Positions 15,201-27,200 of a stretch of 64,000 nt of DNA are shown one piece after another. The notes beneath the pieces are model-generated. The model was given only the letters and a program-made list of their open reading frames with translations. It did no database searches and was not told the DNA's origin. Source of the stretch: Dendrophyllia cribrosa (taxonomy: Eukaryota; Cnidaria; Anthozoa; Scleractinia; Dendrophylliidae); the NCBI GenBank assembly GCA_024195265.1, contig JAJLRJ010000014.1, positions 14,289,959 to 14,353,958 on the forward strand, read 5' to 3'. The first letter of the stretch is position 1. Each line of letters begins with the position of its first letter. The translations under genes and the position numbers were made by a program.

Positions 15201-18200
15201 TATGGGACAACCAGCGTGCGGCCAAAATATGCAAATTAGGACTTGTGACGTCAACAGTTGTGCAGACCTTCGTAGTCAACATGGTAGTCAAAATTCATTG
15301 TCGGAGGACGTTTCCAACTGAGTAAAACTGCAAAAATATAGCTAAAAAGTGGTTTGTTTTTGAGAAATACTGAAGCGTCTAAAAGCGACACCGCATTTTT
15401 GGCATTTTTGCACAACTGATGACGTCACCATGTTATTTGCTTCTGCTTCTGTTTTTCTGCCGTAAGGATCGGTTTGCCCTTTTTTTGTTTCACTTTAAGT
15501 ATTAATACTGATCTACAATCTCGAACGGAATAAAAAGAGAAATAACACCTCCCCTCCCCCCGATTCAGTGATGGATTCGCACGAAAAGCAAAACGCGCCA
15601 TTTTCCCATCACTGAACCGGAGGGGAGGGAGGTATTAATTTTCATTTGAAATGTCCAAGATTGTGTATAGGATTTCTACGTGATAAAACAAACTTAAGGT
15701 AGTTACTAATTAGATGGTCATTTATCGCGGTATATAAAGGGTCTCTGACGCAGTCATGCACGTCACAGTTTCACGGCAGCATCTAAGTTTGGGGTTTAGG
15801 CATTACCGGTCGGTTATTTTCAGTAACACAAACTGAATATTTAACAACTATTCACCGAAGTGGAGGTGGGTAGTGGTGGATATTTACCGATCCACGAAGC
15901 GGCGAGGTATATACTGAAACACTGAGATAATATAACGAAAATAATGCTTTTTAACTCATTTATTCCTGTCAACGATTACAATTTTTGTACGCAAATTGAT
16001 GGGAGGTGAATAGCACTTGCTATTCCGAGTTTCAGTAGCCAATCAGAGCGCGCCAACAATGCTATCCACTGTTTCAGTATATACTAAAATGCATTATTCT
16101 TGGCACAACTTTCCAAAGCACTACAGGCAACAACAAGGAATCATATCTTCACTGGAAAATCTATATGTGACATCCAGAAGGAGATCCAGACATCCAGACA
16201 TCCAGACATCTAGACATCCAGAAGGAGAATGCCTGAAGAAACAAAAGCTGTAATCAAAGTCTTAATTTAGACTACTACAGATCTCACATTAGACAAGATC
16301 GCTGAACAATGTAAGGTTACCATAGCAAGTATTCACCGCATAATAACCGCAAAAGACAAAGCCCGGAGTGGGGGGGGGGGGGGGGGGGGTACTCCCTTAT
16401 ATGAGCTATATAGGTAAGTGCCGCTGCATGCTGTGAAGGGGTGAAGGGTATAGTTTTCAGGCAGTTTAGTCTTGGATAGGATAAAGTAATCGGAGATTTT
16501 TGGTCTAGAATAGGGTATCATTTCCCCCGAAACTGATCAGTTGCTACCCTGGGTGCCAGAGGTTTTTCTTGCGCGGTTTCCGGTGTCGGTTATGTCTCTA
16601 TTGTGCCGACCGGCCTTCGGCCGGCAAGTCACGAAGCTCGCCGCGAGAATACCTCTGGTACCCAGGGTAATCAGTTGCATGAATAGGGTATCATTTCCCG
16701 CGAAACTGATCAGTTGCATGAAGAATTTAGTCTAGACAAGGTTTACTGGCAAATGGCATTTAAAAATCGGTACGGCGGCCAGTACGGTATTTTTACTGAC
16801 CCCTGTTAACTAATAACAAAGAAAGCTTCATAAATGAACGAGTTTCTGGAAAATATCTAGTCTGGACTAGGATAGGGTAGGATTTTTCGGTGTTTAGTCT
16901 AAAATAGGGTTGCAAAATGCGGCTAAACTGGTCTAGTATAGGTTAAGGGTCTCAGAGTCCCAGTGGCACACCCCCACCCAAAATTTTGCGGAGTACTCCC
17001 CCCCACCTCCCCCCCGAGAGACAAAGTACCTGAGAACAAGAGGCATTTGTGCGACAGAAAGAAACAGCTTACTCCTGAACACGAGACATTGATTCTTGGA
17101 AGTATTGAAGAATTGAGAGAGCGAGATGGCTCATTTTCTTCAAGACGCCTGGTGGAGCGGACAGGACTTCGTCATGTCACTGATCGAACTGTTCGACGTC
17201 TGTTAAACGGAAATGGGTACTACTTGTAAAAAGGGGCTTATGAGTGAAACGGACAAAGAGAAGAGAGTAGAATTTGCCAGAAAGATACAAGCAAATTACC
17301 CTCCGAGTGTATGGACAGACACTATCGCCTTCTGCTTAGATGGAGTCTCGTTTGTTTACAAGTCGAACCCCATGGATCAGGCCCGAGCTCCCAATAGGAA
17401 GAGTATGGCGAAAAAAATCTGAAGGTCTGACTCAAGGGTGTTTGGCTAAGGGAAGTAAAGCTAGAACGGGAGGGAAAGTTGTCAAGATGATGGAAGCAAT
17501 AAGTCACGGTAAAGGAGTAGTGATTTGTGAGAGATACAAAAAACTGGATGCGCAATATTTTGCATCTTTTATTGACCAACATTTTAACACGAAACTGGAA
17601 AGAATACCAGCGCACTGCCATCATTTCAGTTTCTCTTTCGTCTATGGCTCCTCCCTTTACGTACACGAAATCGTGTTTACTGGTACAAAAAATTGGTGTG
17701 TCCGCATTAAACTCGAGGTCCTTGGAAAAGTGTGACTTTTGGGCAGGAAGATGTACGGGCTGTCCCTCGAGCATTAAGAGGAAATCGTGCGATTGGATGG
17801 TTTGCGCATTCTATCGAAAGTCGTTTAAAAATATAATGACCTCTGCTTTTTCAGCCCCCACCAAAGCAAAAGTGGACGAAGCAGGATTACTAAATGACTT
17901 ATAAACCACATTTAAAGGATTAAGGATGAACGTTTTCCCTGTGTTAGCTGGCCACTTTATAAGAATGTTTCTGAATTTTCCTCTCCCTTGCTCCACTAAA
18001 TTCCTAACAGCCTGAGTAAAGGTGTCTTCCGAAATGTCATTCCACCTGAGTATAGCTGTTTGGCACACTGTGTAGCCATTGTCCGTTGCACTGCTCATTG
18101 CACAGGTCTTCCAGAGCGTTCTCCAAAATCTCCAGTCTGGTCATTCTCCGCCTGAGTAAAGCTTCACTGGCCTTCTCCATTTCACACGCGGTTGCGATTA

Positions 18201-21200
18201 GTTCTTCAACTACTTTATTTCCTCTGTTGACAATGAATTCAGCCAGGTCGGTTTTTCCTTCCGCTTTTTGGGTGCTTGCGTCAGTGCGAGTAGTTCAGTT
18301 CTAGTTTTTATTTGCTTCGAAACTACTATCTCGAGGGTGTACAGGGGTATTTTCGTGATGCGTGATTAGCTGATTTTATTTTCCGTGAAACGTGAATTTA
18401 ATAAATTATTCTTCGTGATCCGTGACCCAAAGGTTTTGCGTGACCTGTGAAGAACTTGAATTAACAACCGATATTCATGATTTCACCACTTTATTCCACG
18501 TGATTTTGAGTCGCAAGACCTCCGGAAGATTTTGAAGACTATGAAAGCATCAAATGCGACCTCCGTACAATTATCGTAACGTCTCGTAAGGCATCGGCAA
18601 CTACCAAATAACCGAGAGCTTTCCTCGATGATCTTCGTCTAATCTTCAGTACATGTCGTAAAGTAATCGATTGGGCTTTCACGCGCTTCGCATACGTATC
18701 ATGTGTGAGATGCCTACGAGGTCACAGCCACAGTGATTCTAAACATGGCAGCGCAAACGGAGAAGATTTGTACGATTGAGTCTGTTATATTTTTAATACG
18801 TCGACCCAAAGTCCGTGGGTCCATTCAATTTCCTTGGAAAGGAAAGAATTCGATTTCCTGTGAAAAATGAGCATTCGTCGTTGACAGTTTTAAGAAGAGA
18901 ATTCGCAGAATTTGCAGAATTAAAGGCAGAGGCGAGAAACGTGGCCTTGGTCCCGGTGAAAGGAGGATATTACCATCTTTCCGGCATGCACTGCAGGCAA
19001 ACTATATTATCAAACGGCGGCGACCCGCAAGCAGCTCATTTTACACAGACGCCGTTGAGGTTGGAGGTCAGTTGGTCGTAGCGGAAACCTTTCAAAAGAA
19101 ATCTACGTTAACCTATTTATTCTATTCACCTTTACAGAATATTTTCTATTTCGGGTTATGTTTACAGTTTGCTTTAAGGCCGCTTAACTTCCCAGAGGGG
19201 CAGAAACCCGCGATAAGCGTCGCGTGGTAGACGCTTGAAATCTCTTCACAGATTCATGGAATCAATAAATCGTCTCGCCATTTCAAAAGAATGCCGATGC
19301 CGGCTTATATTAGAAGAATATCCGTATATTTGCTTGCTTTGACTTATTAAACCTAACACTGGTGAACAGAGCCGGTGAAATAATTCCCGCTAACTGAAAA
19401 TATGAAACAACAGCTACTCAGCTAGCTTCAGCTCAACCACTCAGCACACGACTGTCCTGCTGTGTTTGTTTACGGTTATGTTATTTTTAGTTCAAAATCG
19501 ATCTTCGCTTTTCTCGCTATTTTCTGACTTTTCTATGGTACGAATTATTTTTTTAACTATGAAAAATAAATTATATTTACATGGCCACCTGTTTTGAGGA
19601 GGATTGTTGTCCCATCCTGTGACTGTGCAAGAAATTGGCGAACGATAAACAGCCCAACTTCCTCCTTAATGGATGAAAAACTTTCCTTTGAGCTATTGAG
19701 CAGTTGTTGAATCGTAAGTTGTTCTCCATAGGTTGTAGCAGGACCAGGTGCTAGTAGTTGTGCTGGTGCGGCCGCTGCTGCTGCCAGTGCTTGCCACGGT
19801 GACGGTGGGGTGAGTAGTAGTGCTGGAACTGGAACCGCAACTTGCATTGGAGTGGTTGGGTCATGAACAGGTGCCACCTTGTTCGTTTGTACAGTTGCAT
19901 TTTGGGTGGGTGCTACGGTGTGGTTAGGATTAGGGATGCAGCCTTCTTGGTGCTGTGGGAGCTGGTGTAGTTTAACTGTTTGGGTGCCTATGGGGCATTG
20001 AAAATCTAGCTCTGAAATGATTGTCTGTAGAACAAAAGGGGCCGGTTCTATAAACTCTTCAGGATTTTCAATGACAGTTCGGCAAACCGGGCATTGGGGA
20101 CCACACATGTTAAACGAAAAAGATAGGCAACTAGCACAAAAAATGTGGGGGGTTTGGCATTTTGTCTGGACAGCCTGATCTAGGACTTCTTTGCAGATTG
20201 GACAAATATATTCATGTTTGACAAACTGTTCCGGGTAAAGGGGTTCTGTTTCTCGGTAGGTTTTTCCTCAGAAAATAAAGGTGTGGTGTGGTCTGGTTGA
20301 AAGCTCAAAGTTCCAGATATTCCCTGTACCATTTCTGCCGCTTCCTTCGATCCAGGGTCATCATCTTTTGGTTTTACTCCAGGCTTAGATTTTTCCTTCT
20401 ACCGGGCTTTTGCTGATCCTTAAAGGAACTGTAGACCTTGCAATTCCCAGTTCGCTTATGAGGTGGCCAGACATTGATTGCCAGACGTGTTCCTCTTCTG
20501 GAAGAAAGCTTATAGCACTTGTGACAGAACTTAGGGGAACATGTTTCAAGGTCATCCTCACGACTTTTTACACCATAGGCACTAAAAATAATCTCTCTTA
20601 TCAGCGCAGAACTATTTTCGCGTGTTTCTTTGGCCTTCTTCAACCGCTCACTACAAATTCGGCAAAGCTTTTCAATTATTTGTTGATGTTCAGTGAGACC
20701 AAAGTTAGCCATATTTGAATATTGGTAGTAGTTTGCCTCAGCTAGCTTGGACTGAATGATCCTGGAAATCTGTTTGGAACGTGAAGTTTTAATTTAACGT
20801 TTATCGAAGAATGGAACAAGCTTCTGGTTCGTTTTATATTTCAGGAAAACGTGTGTATTTATCTTTCACAGTTTCGAGGGGAATGTTGCATTCAAGTTCA
20901 TTACGTGACGCGTGGTCAGTAATATTTCAATATAACACATACATGAAATAAAGTAAATCGCCATCAAAACACTCCAGCATGTCAAGGCACTGATTAATTA
21001 TTTTATTTAAGGATTAAAAAGGTATTCTAGAACGGCAAAGAAATCGCTAAATGTTCAGGATCAGTGTGAGGACCAGAGTGAGATGAGATGCGTGGTTTCG
21101 CAATTTCCCGCAACAGATGACACGCACTTTTTTGGGAAGGCCAGAAATCGACATAGTGCGACTTCCATTCGCATCATCGAACCAAATCTGTTGGTTTTAG

Positions 21201-24200
21201 TTGTTTTTCCTTTGCTGTGGTCCTGTCGGCAAGTTTTGTTCACGCAGAATTATATTTCGAAGCGAAACTTGCACATTTCAGGAGCAATAATTTGAAGACG
21301 AAGGAGAAGCGGCCGCCATCTTTGCTATTTTGGTGACTACATGTGGTCGGCGATAAAACCATTCAAACCAATTCGGATCAAAATGGGATAGTATAGAAAA
21401 GAACCACAAAAGATGGAGTAAGAACTAGACGTGTATCTTTATTTTAGGAAAAATTCGACAACATCAGAAACAGCAAGTGTTTTTGAGTATACTTAAAAGA
21501 CGTGAAAGATCCTTTCTTAAAACAGGACGCTTGCAACCCGCGATCAGATTTGACCTTTCCCGGTAGAACATTAACCAGGGACACTAAAAACAATAACTGC
21601 GCATAAAATTATACTTTCTACAAGCTAGGCGCATATACTTTTTGTCTTTAGGTTATCCGTGGGCTCTTGGATGTTGAGCCGTTGTCGCAATCCATTCAGC
21701 GGTTTCAATCTTAAAAAATCAATTTGACATGCGCGAACTTAGTTTCCACAACGATGCCTTCTGAAACACGACTTCCCATGTAATACGAGAATTTAGTTTT
21801 ATCGACTGAGTCGATAAGGTAAATTGACCACCGTAAAAAGATTCAAATAGCTGACGTTTCGAGCGCTAGCCCTTCGTCGGAGCGAATCAAGGAATTGTGG
21901 GTAGTGTGTGGTTTTATATAGTAAGCGGTGGAGCTACGCTATTGGTGGAAATTTGGTGACGTGAAAAACAAATGTAAATTAGTTGAATGAAAAGCGTTCG
22001 TTGATTCCGTGGGGTTTGAGAGTGCCGACAAAATAACAGGACCCAAACGATCTATTAAAATCACTGATCGTTTTACATGCACCTCCGTAAATGTTATCTA
22101 CTGCATAACATGTACTTTTTGCAAAAAGATATACATTGGCGAAACAGGGAGGAGACTGGGCGACCGTTTTCGTGAACATCTCCGAGACGTTGAAAAAAAT
22201 GACAAAGACGCATCCAAACCAGTCGCGCGCCATTTTAATCTTACTAACCATTCTAAACAACACATGACAATCTGCGGCCTTTTCCTACACCAGGGTAACA
22301 CAGAAAGCCGTAAAAACCTAGAACAAAAAAATCATCTTTCAAATCGGCACTCTCAAACCCCACGGAATCAACGAACGCTTTTCATTCAACTAATTTACAT
22401 TTGTTTTTCACGTCACCAAATTTCTACCAATAGCGTAGCTCCACCGCTTACTATATAAAACCACACACTACCCACAATTCCTTGATTCGCTCCGACGAAG
22501 GGCTAGCGCTCGAAACGTCAGCTATTTGAATCTTTTTACGGTGGTCAATTTACCTTATCGACTCAGTCGATAAAACTAAATTCTCGTGTTTCATCCCCCC
22601 ACCGACGCAGCACCACAGTTTCTCTAGAAACTAACCCCATTCTTCCCATGTAATGTTGATTATGTCGAAGCGAGATCCCCCGGGGGGGGGGGGGGGGGGG
22701 GGGGGTACTCACGACAATTTAGGATAGGTGTGTACCGCCAAGGTTCTCAAACCCTGACCCTATTTTTTAAAGGGTAGAAAATCGAGATTTGATACCCTTT
22801 TTAAGGCCCAAAACCAAGCCGTGTAGTACAGTTTTAACAGACCATATCTTTTTCATTTTGCGCGTTGGGGTGGATACTGCAATTTAGTGACCCTATCTAA
22901 GAAATATCTAAGGACCACAATACCAAAAATACCAAAAAGGATACCCTATTTACGGACTGAGTACCTCAAAAACCCTACCCTATCGGGCGGTACATACCTA
23001 TATAGCGTATATAAGAGAGTAGCCCCACCCCCGGGGGGCAAGATCAAGTGGACTATCGATATTCGATTCTGCGTCGTTAAAGGCCACCACGAATGTCCTT
23101 TTGAAGTAAATGTTGTCAATGTTGATGAAACGTTTTTCGCCATCAAGGAGAGAGGAGAACGTAGGAATGCGTTCAAAGTTACCGACGATCGTGGGCAGCT
23201 CGGCTATCTTCAAGCCGAACTTGTTAGTCCTCTCTGGCCGTTACACACAAAGATTGCTGTGTAAGTTTCCTAAAGCCCAATGAAATAGATAATGGAAATT
23301 TAATATCTCTATCGCCGCGGCTCCGTCTTTTGTTCCTAGTTTAGTTTTTTACAGTGGAACCTCGATTTAACAAACCTCTATATAACGAAATCCTCGGGAT
23401 AACGAACGATAATCTTCAGCCCGGCAAAATTACAAGTAAAATGTATGGAACAGAACCTCGATATAAAGAAATCCTCGTTATAATGAACACAATCCGCTAG
23501 TCCAAACGTAAAATCTACCCCGATATAACGAATAAATGTACCCTGGGTGCCAGAGGTTTTCTTTCTTTTCTTTTTTAGTGAAACCTCGAGAGCTTCTTCT
23601 AACCGTTTATGCGGTTAATTTCGCTCATGATATTCAGAGAACGGACATCTGGATCCAGGATGGAATAAATGTCAATGCGCGACAAAAGATGAATGCGGAA
23701 CAGACCAACAGTGTATGCTATAAGGCATAAACTGTACAGTTTTTCACTGCCGCAGTTATATTTATAGTGTACTGTAGCTTCATACAGGCATTTAAGTGCA
23801 AATGTAGACTTGCCACAAGTCGACTGCGAAGCCCCCGAGAGCGCGACGAAGTCGCGAAAAGCGAGCGCCGTAAAAAAAACGGACTTCGAGAAAGCCGCCC
23901 GACCACCCAAAACGAAGAAACGAAAAACGGTCTAGTGCAAATGTTATTTGTTGAGATGCAGAAATACGTAACACTGTTACAAAACAATTATTAACTATAC
24001 CTCGATATAACGATCATTTTGGTTGTTTTCCGCAAATTCGTTATAACGAGGTTTTAAAAAAACAAACCCTCGATATAACGAACGCATTTCCTTAGTCCCT
24101 TGGCAATTCGTGAAATCGAGGTTCCACTGTATAATGAAGGCAATGTTACATAGGGCGATTACTTTTGCAATGATGATTTTTAGAGCAACGATGTTGCGTG

Positions 24201-27200
24201 TTTGATGCCATGTGACATGGGCGCCCGGACGAATTTCAGCGCAATGTTTGTGCTGCCAGCACGTTGAAACCAAAGATCACGAATGTAGTACAAGTTGATG
24301 CTGCGTTGCGCTAAAACTGAATAGCGGTTGCGAATCGTCACGTGTAACATCGGCTTCAGATTATAGCCATATATAGTTGCAAAAGGCCGATTAACGAGGC
24401 GGTGAGGTACAAATTATAAAAAGGCAAGGCTTGATTTGCTGCTGTTACTGTTTTCATGTTTTGTTACTTTGAAATTCAAGCAATGTCAAAAAATTAGCCT
24501 GTTTTATATTGATCTCAGATGGACACAAAAAAACGTTTATCTTTTTTCACAATGATTTCAACATGACGATTCACTCGAACTAGCCGCCTAAAGAAGAAAA
24601 TAGGTTTTTAAATAGGTCGTTTTGTTGTTTTGAGACCATCAATCGTTTCATTGAATGGGTGTTTCTTGGTGTTGCGGAAGCCATTGTTGGTTAGCTTTTG
24701 TGTTGTGGTGTGGGTATTGTTCAGTGTCTTTTGAATCTTTTGTTTTACGTTATTTGGTGATCACACCATCCGCAACACCAAGAAACATTTAATAGAAAGC
24801 GTAAAATAAAAGGCATGATTAGTCATAATTATAATATCGGAAGAAATAAACAAAGTTAAATCCGATTTGTCAATTTATATGATACGTACGTTTTATTGAA
24901 AACATAAAGCAAGATTTAGGTATTCAATGATAATCAATATTAATCAATAATAATCAATAATAATCAATGAAAATCGATACTCACTCAACTTTTAGTCTGA
25001 TTTTTATTGATTTTCTAATAACAATCAATCAATTGGTATTGATTATTATTGATTGTTATTGACTATTGATTTTCATTGATTGGTACCGCCGGGCCTTGGT
25101 TCATGCATTGAGCTAAAATTTTGTCGGCTCGAAAAGGGAAAAGACGGCAGTAAGGCCTTTGCAATAAACACGCAAGAGCAATGGGATGGTTAATGTTTCT
25201 TCGGCCTGTCGCTACACGTAGTGGACGAATGGTCAGAGTCGTCTATCGAGAATGATTAAGGTATACAATTTGCAATATGTAGCCTTCCTTTTGCTTTTCT
25301 CTATTTTTCTTTCTTCAAACACTTCTTCTTTGCCACTTGTCTTTGCGTAAGAGCAGGATAAGAGTGCGTTACTTGCTTATTTTGGTATTTCGGGAAAATG
25401 AAATTTTGATATCCGTGATCCGTGATTCGTTAGTTTTTCTGCCCGTGAACCGTGCCAGTCACACCCCCCTGTACGACCCTCTATCTCCGTCACTTGAAAA
25501 GAGCTTAAGCGCTGAGATCGCCTTCGTTTACTTGACGTCTTTTTTGCCGCCCTTCTACCTGTAGAAGCAGAACTTTCTTCATTTTCCTTCACCCCCAACT
25601 CATCTTCTCCGCTTGCGGAATCTGTCGCTGAATCCTCTAAATTGTCAACCCGTCGTCGTTTCGCACGAGCTTGACTTGCTGACATAGGGCTTGAGTTGAT
25701 TAAGTCTGGATGACCGTGAGACTGAAAAAAGTTTTCGTCTTCTTTCATTGTGTATATAACCAAGCACTGTAGTAATTCACGTGACGGTTTCAGAAGTGAA
25801 CATGGACATTCCACTTGTGTTTTAAATATTTTGGCGAATGGGTAGCCAGGGTAGCCACCGCTTAATCTGTCTAGCTTTATAGCCATATCGGATAATGCTT
25901 CCTTGCTTTTTATGCCTTTCTTGGCAGCATGACCATTGCACTATTTTCGCATTTTGAAACAGCTTCGCAAACTGCAGCAGCGAATGATTCTTTTTCAGGA
26001 AAAATGCTGAGATCTGCTTGGCTATAAGTTAACAGATAGATGCTTCGTACTTGTTGTGTGAGCTGCTGCAAATCGTCTTCAAAACCGTCAGATTGGCTCT
26101 CCGAGGAACTTGAACTCGTACTATACTAGCTGCGAGAGCAATTCCATTATTGTGAGGAACTAAGTTCGCGACCTTCAGCGGAGATTATATATATACTAGT
26201 GTATCCAAAAGATAGTAATTGCTGCGGTAAATTTGTTGTCATAATGCTGTTTTATCGTCTCGCTCAGCTGGTATTACAGAATTTTCTCTTTCGTTTTTGA
26301 GGGGAAGCAAAGCAAATGTAACCGGGATGAATCGACGAAAACTCCAGCTGATAAGACTAATTTTGTTTTGAAATTCACGCATCAAGTTCTTGCAATGTCT
26401 GTTGAATATTGTTGAGCAAAGGACGCGTTCACCACGAGGAAGGTGTGAAAATTTAGGTTAATACGTTGCGTTACTAGCTAGCCGTATCGTAGCTATTGTA
26501 GCTAGCCGTATCGTGTTCGCGTCTCCACGCGCTCAGCTCAGGTTTCGCGTCCCCACGTGCTCAGCTCAGTTCAAAATAAATTTGTCTTTTATTCCGTACA
26601 ATCTTCGAAAATCTTTGCTATCCAACGGTCCTATCACCATGCCTCACAGTCCTCGCTCAACTCGCGGTAGTCTTCAACACTTCAGTTCCGATTTCGACTG
26701 GGACATGTTGGACCAAAAAATATTACAAATCTCGCAGCCAACAGCTTGAAGCAGCAAGCGAGGCTATTGTTCGTGGCGCAGTGCATTCTGGCCCAAAATG
26801 TGTTCGTGGCGCAGTGAATTCTGGTAAAAAGCGATCAATTCGAGATTTTTCCTAGCTTATATTTTTTTTCTCATATATTTCTCTTAAATCCTGATTATGT
26901 TGCTGCTCACTCGCTGCGCTCGTTCCGCAGCAATAATGCAACGGTTATGCTAAATTGCCGCACAATGATAACAATAGCGGTCAGTTCACACAATTAGGAA
27001 TCTATCGGCTTCATTAAAGCAACATAACTTCACTTTTGGACAAAGCTCAGAACATGCAATTATGTATAGTTAATAGTTATATCAATAGAGTAGAACGCAA
27101 AAAAACACAGGCATTATGTATATTGAAATCATCTTTTCAATCCCGCACAGGGTTCCTTCTTTTTAGCTAACAATTAGTTCTTTCTGTTATGTTTATTTAT

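Follow-up and report, generated by a model that had tools for sequence, protein, structure and literature searches.

A decayed Chapa-RING exon resembling the RAG1 N-terminus, probably from a Chapaev-type transposase, nested in an AGGGT-ended element of Dendrophyllia cribrosa

A 64,000-nucleotide stretch of the Dendrophyllia cribrosa genome (contig JAJLRJ010000014.1; C6:14289959-14353958, hereafter the window; C1, C19 and C21 denote other sequences of the same genome) carries on its minus strand a decayed coding exon that resembles the N-terminus of RAG1. It is very probably what remains of the first coding exon of a Chapaev-type transposase gene, with a Chapa zinc finger and a RING, and lies in a 6.1-kb insertion inside an AGGGT-ended element of about 1.0 kb.

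A broken exon within two nested insertions

The exon encodes CRIC, CSPKFCHKCY, WPPHKRTGNC, a basic linker and a C3HC4 RING on the minus strand, in the order described by the original prediction for positions 19557..20712. That stretch is not a single open reading frame (ORF): ORF A, ORF B and the linker between them occupy three different frames (Table 1). Because the linker, which is conserved in relatives, sits in the third frame, two frameshifts are placed near 20398 and 20264, and the window copy is therefore unable to make protein as a single frame. A single 136-bp GT-AG intron linking ORF A to ORF B was possible and was rejected, the stretch being protein-conserved in relatives.

The AGGGT ends and the flank duplication originally reported are present, at 18334 and 25480, with flanks matching at seven of eight positions; without its insert, the outer element (18326-25488 including flanks) is about 1.0 kb long. 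On this evidence the exon had been read as a gene of a transposon with AGGGT ends and an 8-bp target-site duplication (TSD), but other copies of the element argue otherwise. Window positions 17801-26000 were mapped to the 12 loci that match the left arm, of which those other than L050, L051, L053 and L059 are partial. L050, itself partial and without an AGGGT end, joins left-arm 18397-18951 directly to right-arm 25092-25186 at an uninterrupted site (CTTTGGTTCATG), and L059, with AGGGT...ACCCT ends and other sequence in its middle left part, reads through the same site (CCTTGGTTCATG, GAGAAACGTGGCCTTGGTTCATG). In L053 the arms are joined with a deletion spanning the site and a 6/8 flank match is kept; L051 holds other sequence between its arms, and neither L051 nor L059 has a convincing duplication of its flanks. 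The ORFs scanned in the outer arms gave neither a Pfam match nor a match to the core profile described below. Both L050 and L059 lack the exon at this site, and the ORF is thus foreign to the AGGGT element, an outcome that the original prediction itself had named as counting against it, and that the exon belongs to an AGGGT transposon is now extremely unlikely.

In the window, a 7-bp duplication brackets the insert, with junctions CCTTGGT-CCCGGTG...CGCCGGG-CCTTGGT (7/7 duplicated bases) and ends, CCCGGTG... and CCCGGCG..., that are inverted over about 7 bp.

Table 1 Features of the locus, in window positions
Feature	Position	Strand	Basis or remark
Left 8-bp flank CTATCTCG	18326..18333	.	Matches right flank 7/8
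Left arm, begins AGGGTGTACAGGGG; CGTGAT-type subterminal repeats	18334..18951	+	12 other genome rows match
Left CCTTGGT, 7-bp duplication of inner insertion	18945..18951	.	Uninterrupted in L050, L059
Inner insertion, 6,142 bp, with RAG1-N-like exon and several repeats	18952..25093	.	Locus comparison
Truncated high-copy repeat (terminal inverted repeat AAAGGAGGATATTACC), cuts off intron 1	18959..19543	+	Comparison with other copies
GTAAAT at splice-donor place and 37-bp intron 1 stub before repeat	19544..19580	-	Sequence, relatives, C21 donor
ORF B: RING (ICPIC...CPVCR), second zinc-binding segment, proline-rich tail, to KTGGH	19581..20267	-	ORFs, Pfam, relatives
Stretch common to window and degraded C1 copy (C1:48867-48870 kb)	19664..21727	-	86-88% BLAST identity
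Third-frame linker	20264..20398	-	58-73% identity to P0034, P0003, P0001
ORF A: Chapa (RAG1 N-terminal) zinc-finger part of exon 1, MANFG...KPGRRK	20374..20712	-	ORFs, Pfam, relatives
Nested foldback repeat, 251-bp arms 99% complementary, GIY-YIG fragment	21778..22594	.	Pfam 7e-5
Right CCTTGGT, 7-bp duplication of inner insertion	25094..25100	.	Junction comparison
Right arm, terminates ...CCCCTGTACGACCCT	25094..25480	+	Arm comparison
Right 8-bp flank CTATCTCC	25481..25488	.	Pairs with left flank

RAG1 likeness and core-bearing relatives

The proposed check with a RAG1 N-terminal profile came out positive: ORF A matches Pfam PF12560 (RAG1_imp_bd) at E = 3.6e-5, with 23.9 bits just over the cut-off of 23.3. 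ORF B matches RING models (best E = 1.1e-4), every one below its curated cut-off, and among solved structures it scores TRAF6 (5.8e-8) level with RAG1 (6.6e-8). The RING by itself, together with a PF12560 score merely 0.6 bits over the cut-off, would suit a fragment of a generic TRIM/TRAF-type RING gene with a chance likeness to RAG1. Such an origin is barely credible given that three of the four relatives scanned match PF12560 above cut-off (E = 1.8e-6, 1.7e-8 and 1.2e-8) and that the Chapa cysteines are kept among aligned relatives. Furthermore, a profile of 15 relatives places RAG1 at the top (3.6e-10), with RNF125 (1e-9) and TRAF6 (1.2e-9) close behind, and aligns over its positions 9-304, in one stretch, to mouse RAG1 102-414. 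These sequence comparisons support a resemblance to the RAG1 N-terminus beyond that of a generic RING; the original claim to this effect holds for the module as a whole, not for the RING alone.

A protein search with the read-through of the exon returned 38 proteins, nine of which cover at least 89% of the query at 58-68% identity; the named relatives are Pocillopora P0034 (P. verrucosa) and P0035 (P. meandrina), both automatic gene models. Nine of the 15 aligned relatives, judged from the proteins alone, extend to [KR]TG[GC][QL]V, which is what translation running on into a GT donor should yield. P0035 continues past this junction with PLELVKRTKARKTTDEV, and a joined sequence based on it aligns across the junction with P0066, Asterias P0078 and Branchiostoma P0054; such alignment was obtained at E ≤ 0.01 in seven of ten proteins compared and failed in P0063, P0075 and P0072. 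A search with residues 1-290 of Hydra P0063 found three Hydra proteins, P0063 itself among them. Patterns matched in viral contigs and genome contigs, and tblastn confirmed none as relatives of the exon.

In P0034 the Chapa part (PF12560 E = 0.0061, below cut-off) is joined to a DUF1280 core (2.8e-13), and a search with this core gave 50 proteins, P0034 included. All ten core relatives scanned match DUF1280, with PF12560 above cut-off in four and below it in three; P0075, P0078, P0063 and P0048 carry Chapa, RING and core together, and P0042, P0043 and P0046 carry Chapa and core with no RING match. DUF1280 corresponds to Chapaev transposases, placed in a clade with RAG1 in the part of the source consulted (PMC3985635), and Chapa followed by RING is described, in the text consulted, for two Chapaev subgroups (PMC4411706). 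The predicted fold of a full-length Chapa+DUF1280 relative is RAG1-like, and a fold search finds RAG1; when PDB sequences were searched with the full-length alignment, no transposase turned up, and no RAG1 chain was found with the DUF1280 profile. A predicted structure of the P0001 Chapa-RING module had a predicted local distance difference test (pLDDT) score of 35.7 and was left unused.

The core and the origin of the exon

Searching the genome with ORF A gave five rows from four loci, namely the query itself, C1 with two rows, C19 and C21. Between the exon and the close C1 copy, 974 of 1,020 ungapped positions are identical, with 20 gaps. At C21 (minus strand), the Chapa-RING exon lies in two frames with one stop within the match and is followed by a consensus donor (AAA/GTAAGT) and by core matches in order: GGDHGQGSMKF, with a CAG acceptor before it, FLFGDYEFLC, YPCLW, LHISLG and RQAYHSHSFVGNH. 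Both aspartate segments of the DUF1280 core are matched there.

Possible CAC...GTG ends (13/14 bp) with the TSD ATTG were also seen at C21:27627379-27644940, around the exon-split transposase gene.

Several observations weigh against a Chapaev-type origin. The DUF1280 core profile (31 proteins) found no core remnant in the whole window (best E = 0.82), and no core was matched at the close C1 copy in the 40 kb read (including 18 kb downstream) or at C19, which has Chapa and RING matches, in 40 kb read (28 kb downstream). With no core matched in the window or in the stretches read at C1 and C19, core linkage is therefore seen only in more distant relatives and automatic gene models. The C21 exon is itself a more distant relative, 25-31% identical to P0001; that copy is decayed, some of its core-segment matches hold stops, and its final glutamate segment is without a match. 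Its CAC...GTG ends are weak, as 13 matched positions, reached in 0 of 60 shuffles, did arise in four of the 12 control cross-comparisons that used other real DNA. Chapaev transposons have CAC...GTG ends and a 3-4-bp TSD, in the part of the source consulted (PMC4079192); these were not found around the window copy, where none of the 33 x 83 end pairs in 17001-27000 reached 10/14, and the CCCGG ends and 7-bp duplication of the inner insertion differ from them.

The original prediction of a RAG1 N-terminus encoded without a catalytic core stands insofar as no core was matched in the window; a RAG1/Transib core likewise had no Pfam match in any of the 18 ORFs scanned from the element and its surroundings, where short exons could escape. 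Most likely this is a trait of the broken copy, not of the gene. The 7/7 duplicated bases, the inverted CCCGG ends and the lack of a detectable core in the window copy, the close C1 copy and, in the stretch read, C19 would also fit an N-RAG-TP-like situation in which the inner 6.1-kb unit is a transposon in its own right, coding for RAG1-N, lacking a core and mobilised in trans. We consider this improbable, since the ends match across only about 7 bp, the unit is crowded by other repeats, CCCGG ends with a 7-bp TSD (at most one mismatch) were not found around C1, C21 and C19 (40 kb each), and a core is linked to the exon in relatives and at C21. AGGG ends with an 8-bp TSD gave one pair around these three, at C1, with one TSD mismatch. 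It seems quite improbable that cnidarian genomes harbour core-less Chapa-RING exons that move as units of their own, with CCCGG ends and 7-bp duplications; if they do, such units would amount to an N-RAG-TP-like donor of the RAG1 N-terminus in animals other than molluscs.

For a Chapaev-type gene, as we infer the window copy to have been, an intact relative would splice exon 1 at KTGGQ/GT to later exons bearing the aspartate-aspartate-glutamate (DDE) core. In the complete protein, which would bind the ends of the transposon, DNA cutting and joining would fall to the RNase-H-like core, and the Chapa-RING part may have an accessory role in DNA binding or as a ubiquitin ligase, like its counterpart in RAG1. 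The transposon would have lost its 3′ exons, by insertion or deletion, and, before or after that loss, its 5′ exon would have ended up in the inner insertion, which entered the AGGGT element and received further repeats. With this origin, what looked like a RAG1 N-terminus standing alone in a transposon of a cnidarian no longer counts as such a case, and the locus suggests that exon splitting and nested insertions can yield a seemingly core-less RAG1-N element. A splice donor and downstream DUF1280 exons offer a test for such elements.

Surrounding repeats and known systems

The truncated high-copy repeat adjoins intron 1, 37 bp from the donor, just inside the left end of the inner insertion. 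Its other copies (L020-L048) measure 1.11-1.18 kb and have 9-bp TSDs, by which size we take the repeat to be Mutator-like; from 575 first-look candidates, 40 were scored and 29 loci fetched, with both ends found in 22, and in 20 of these 8-9 of 9 flank bases are duplicated (9/9 in 18). The GIY-YIG fragment in the foldback repeat is presumably as in Penelope-like elements. A short plus-strand frame at 23040-23260 (VKGHHECPFEV...RGQLGYLQAELV, then GTAAG), without a Pfam match, resembles HIRAN by eye, and an AT-rich palindromic array of ATTGATT type (24921-25066) lies beside the right end of the insertion. When the outer flanks are joined (25489-25940 and 18210-18333), a charged, lysine-rich 191-residue frame is open across the empty site; it has no Pfam match and is consistent with a coding or formerly coding target.

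Chapaev transposons with Chapa and RING are described from lancelet and sea anemone in the text consulted (PMC4411706). The window copy shares with them a Chapa zinc finger (PF12560 above cut-off) followed by a RING motif, and its relatives carry the DUF1280 core; it differs in being frameshifted, core-less and nested, the DDE core being found in relatives and, as aspartate segments, at C21. Most likely, the exon and its parent gene are a further case of this known type, and the find is largely ordinary. With vertebrate RAG1 and RAG1L it shares the order of zinc-finger motif and RING and, in a full-length relative, a predicted RAG1-like core fold, whereas the core of its relatives is DUF1280, whose sequence profile finds no RAG1 chain. 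The RAG1/RAGL transposon hallmarks, CAC ends like recombination signal sequences and a 5-bp TSD, contrast with the 7- and 8-bp duplications and the CCCGG and AGGGT ends seen here. Cnidarian RAG1L (Aurelia) is reported without a RING domain in the part of the source consulted (PMC7204232). N-RAG-TP of Aplysia, compared by description only, is reported as RAG1-N-like sequence without a core (PMC8355894, in part), but the window exon has core-linked relatives. The RAG1-like predicted fold of the Chapa+DUF1280 transposase fits the published view, as given in the text consulted, that Chapaev, Transib and RAG1 share an ancestor in which Chapa, RING and core had come together (PMC4411706).
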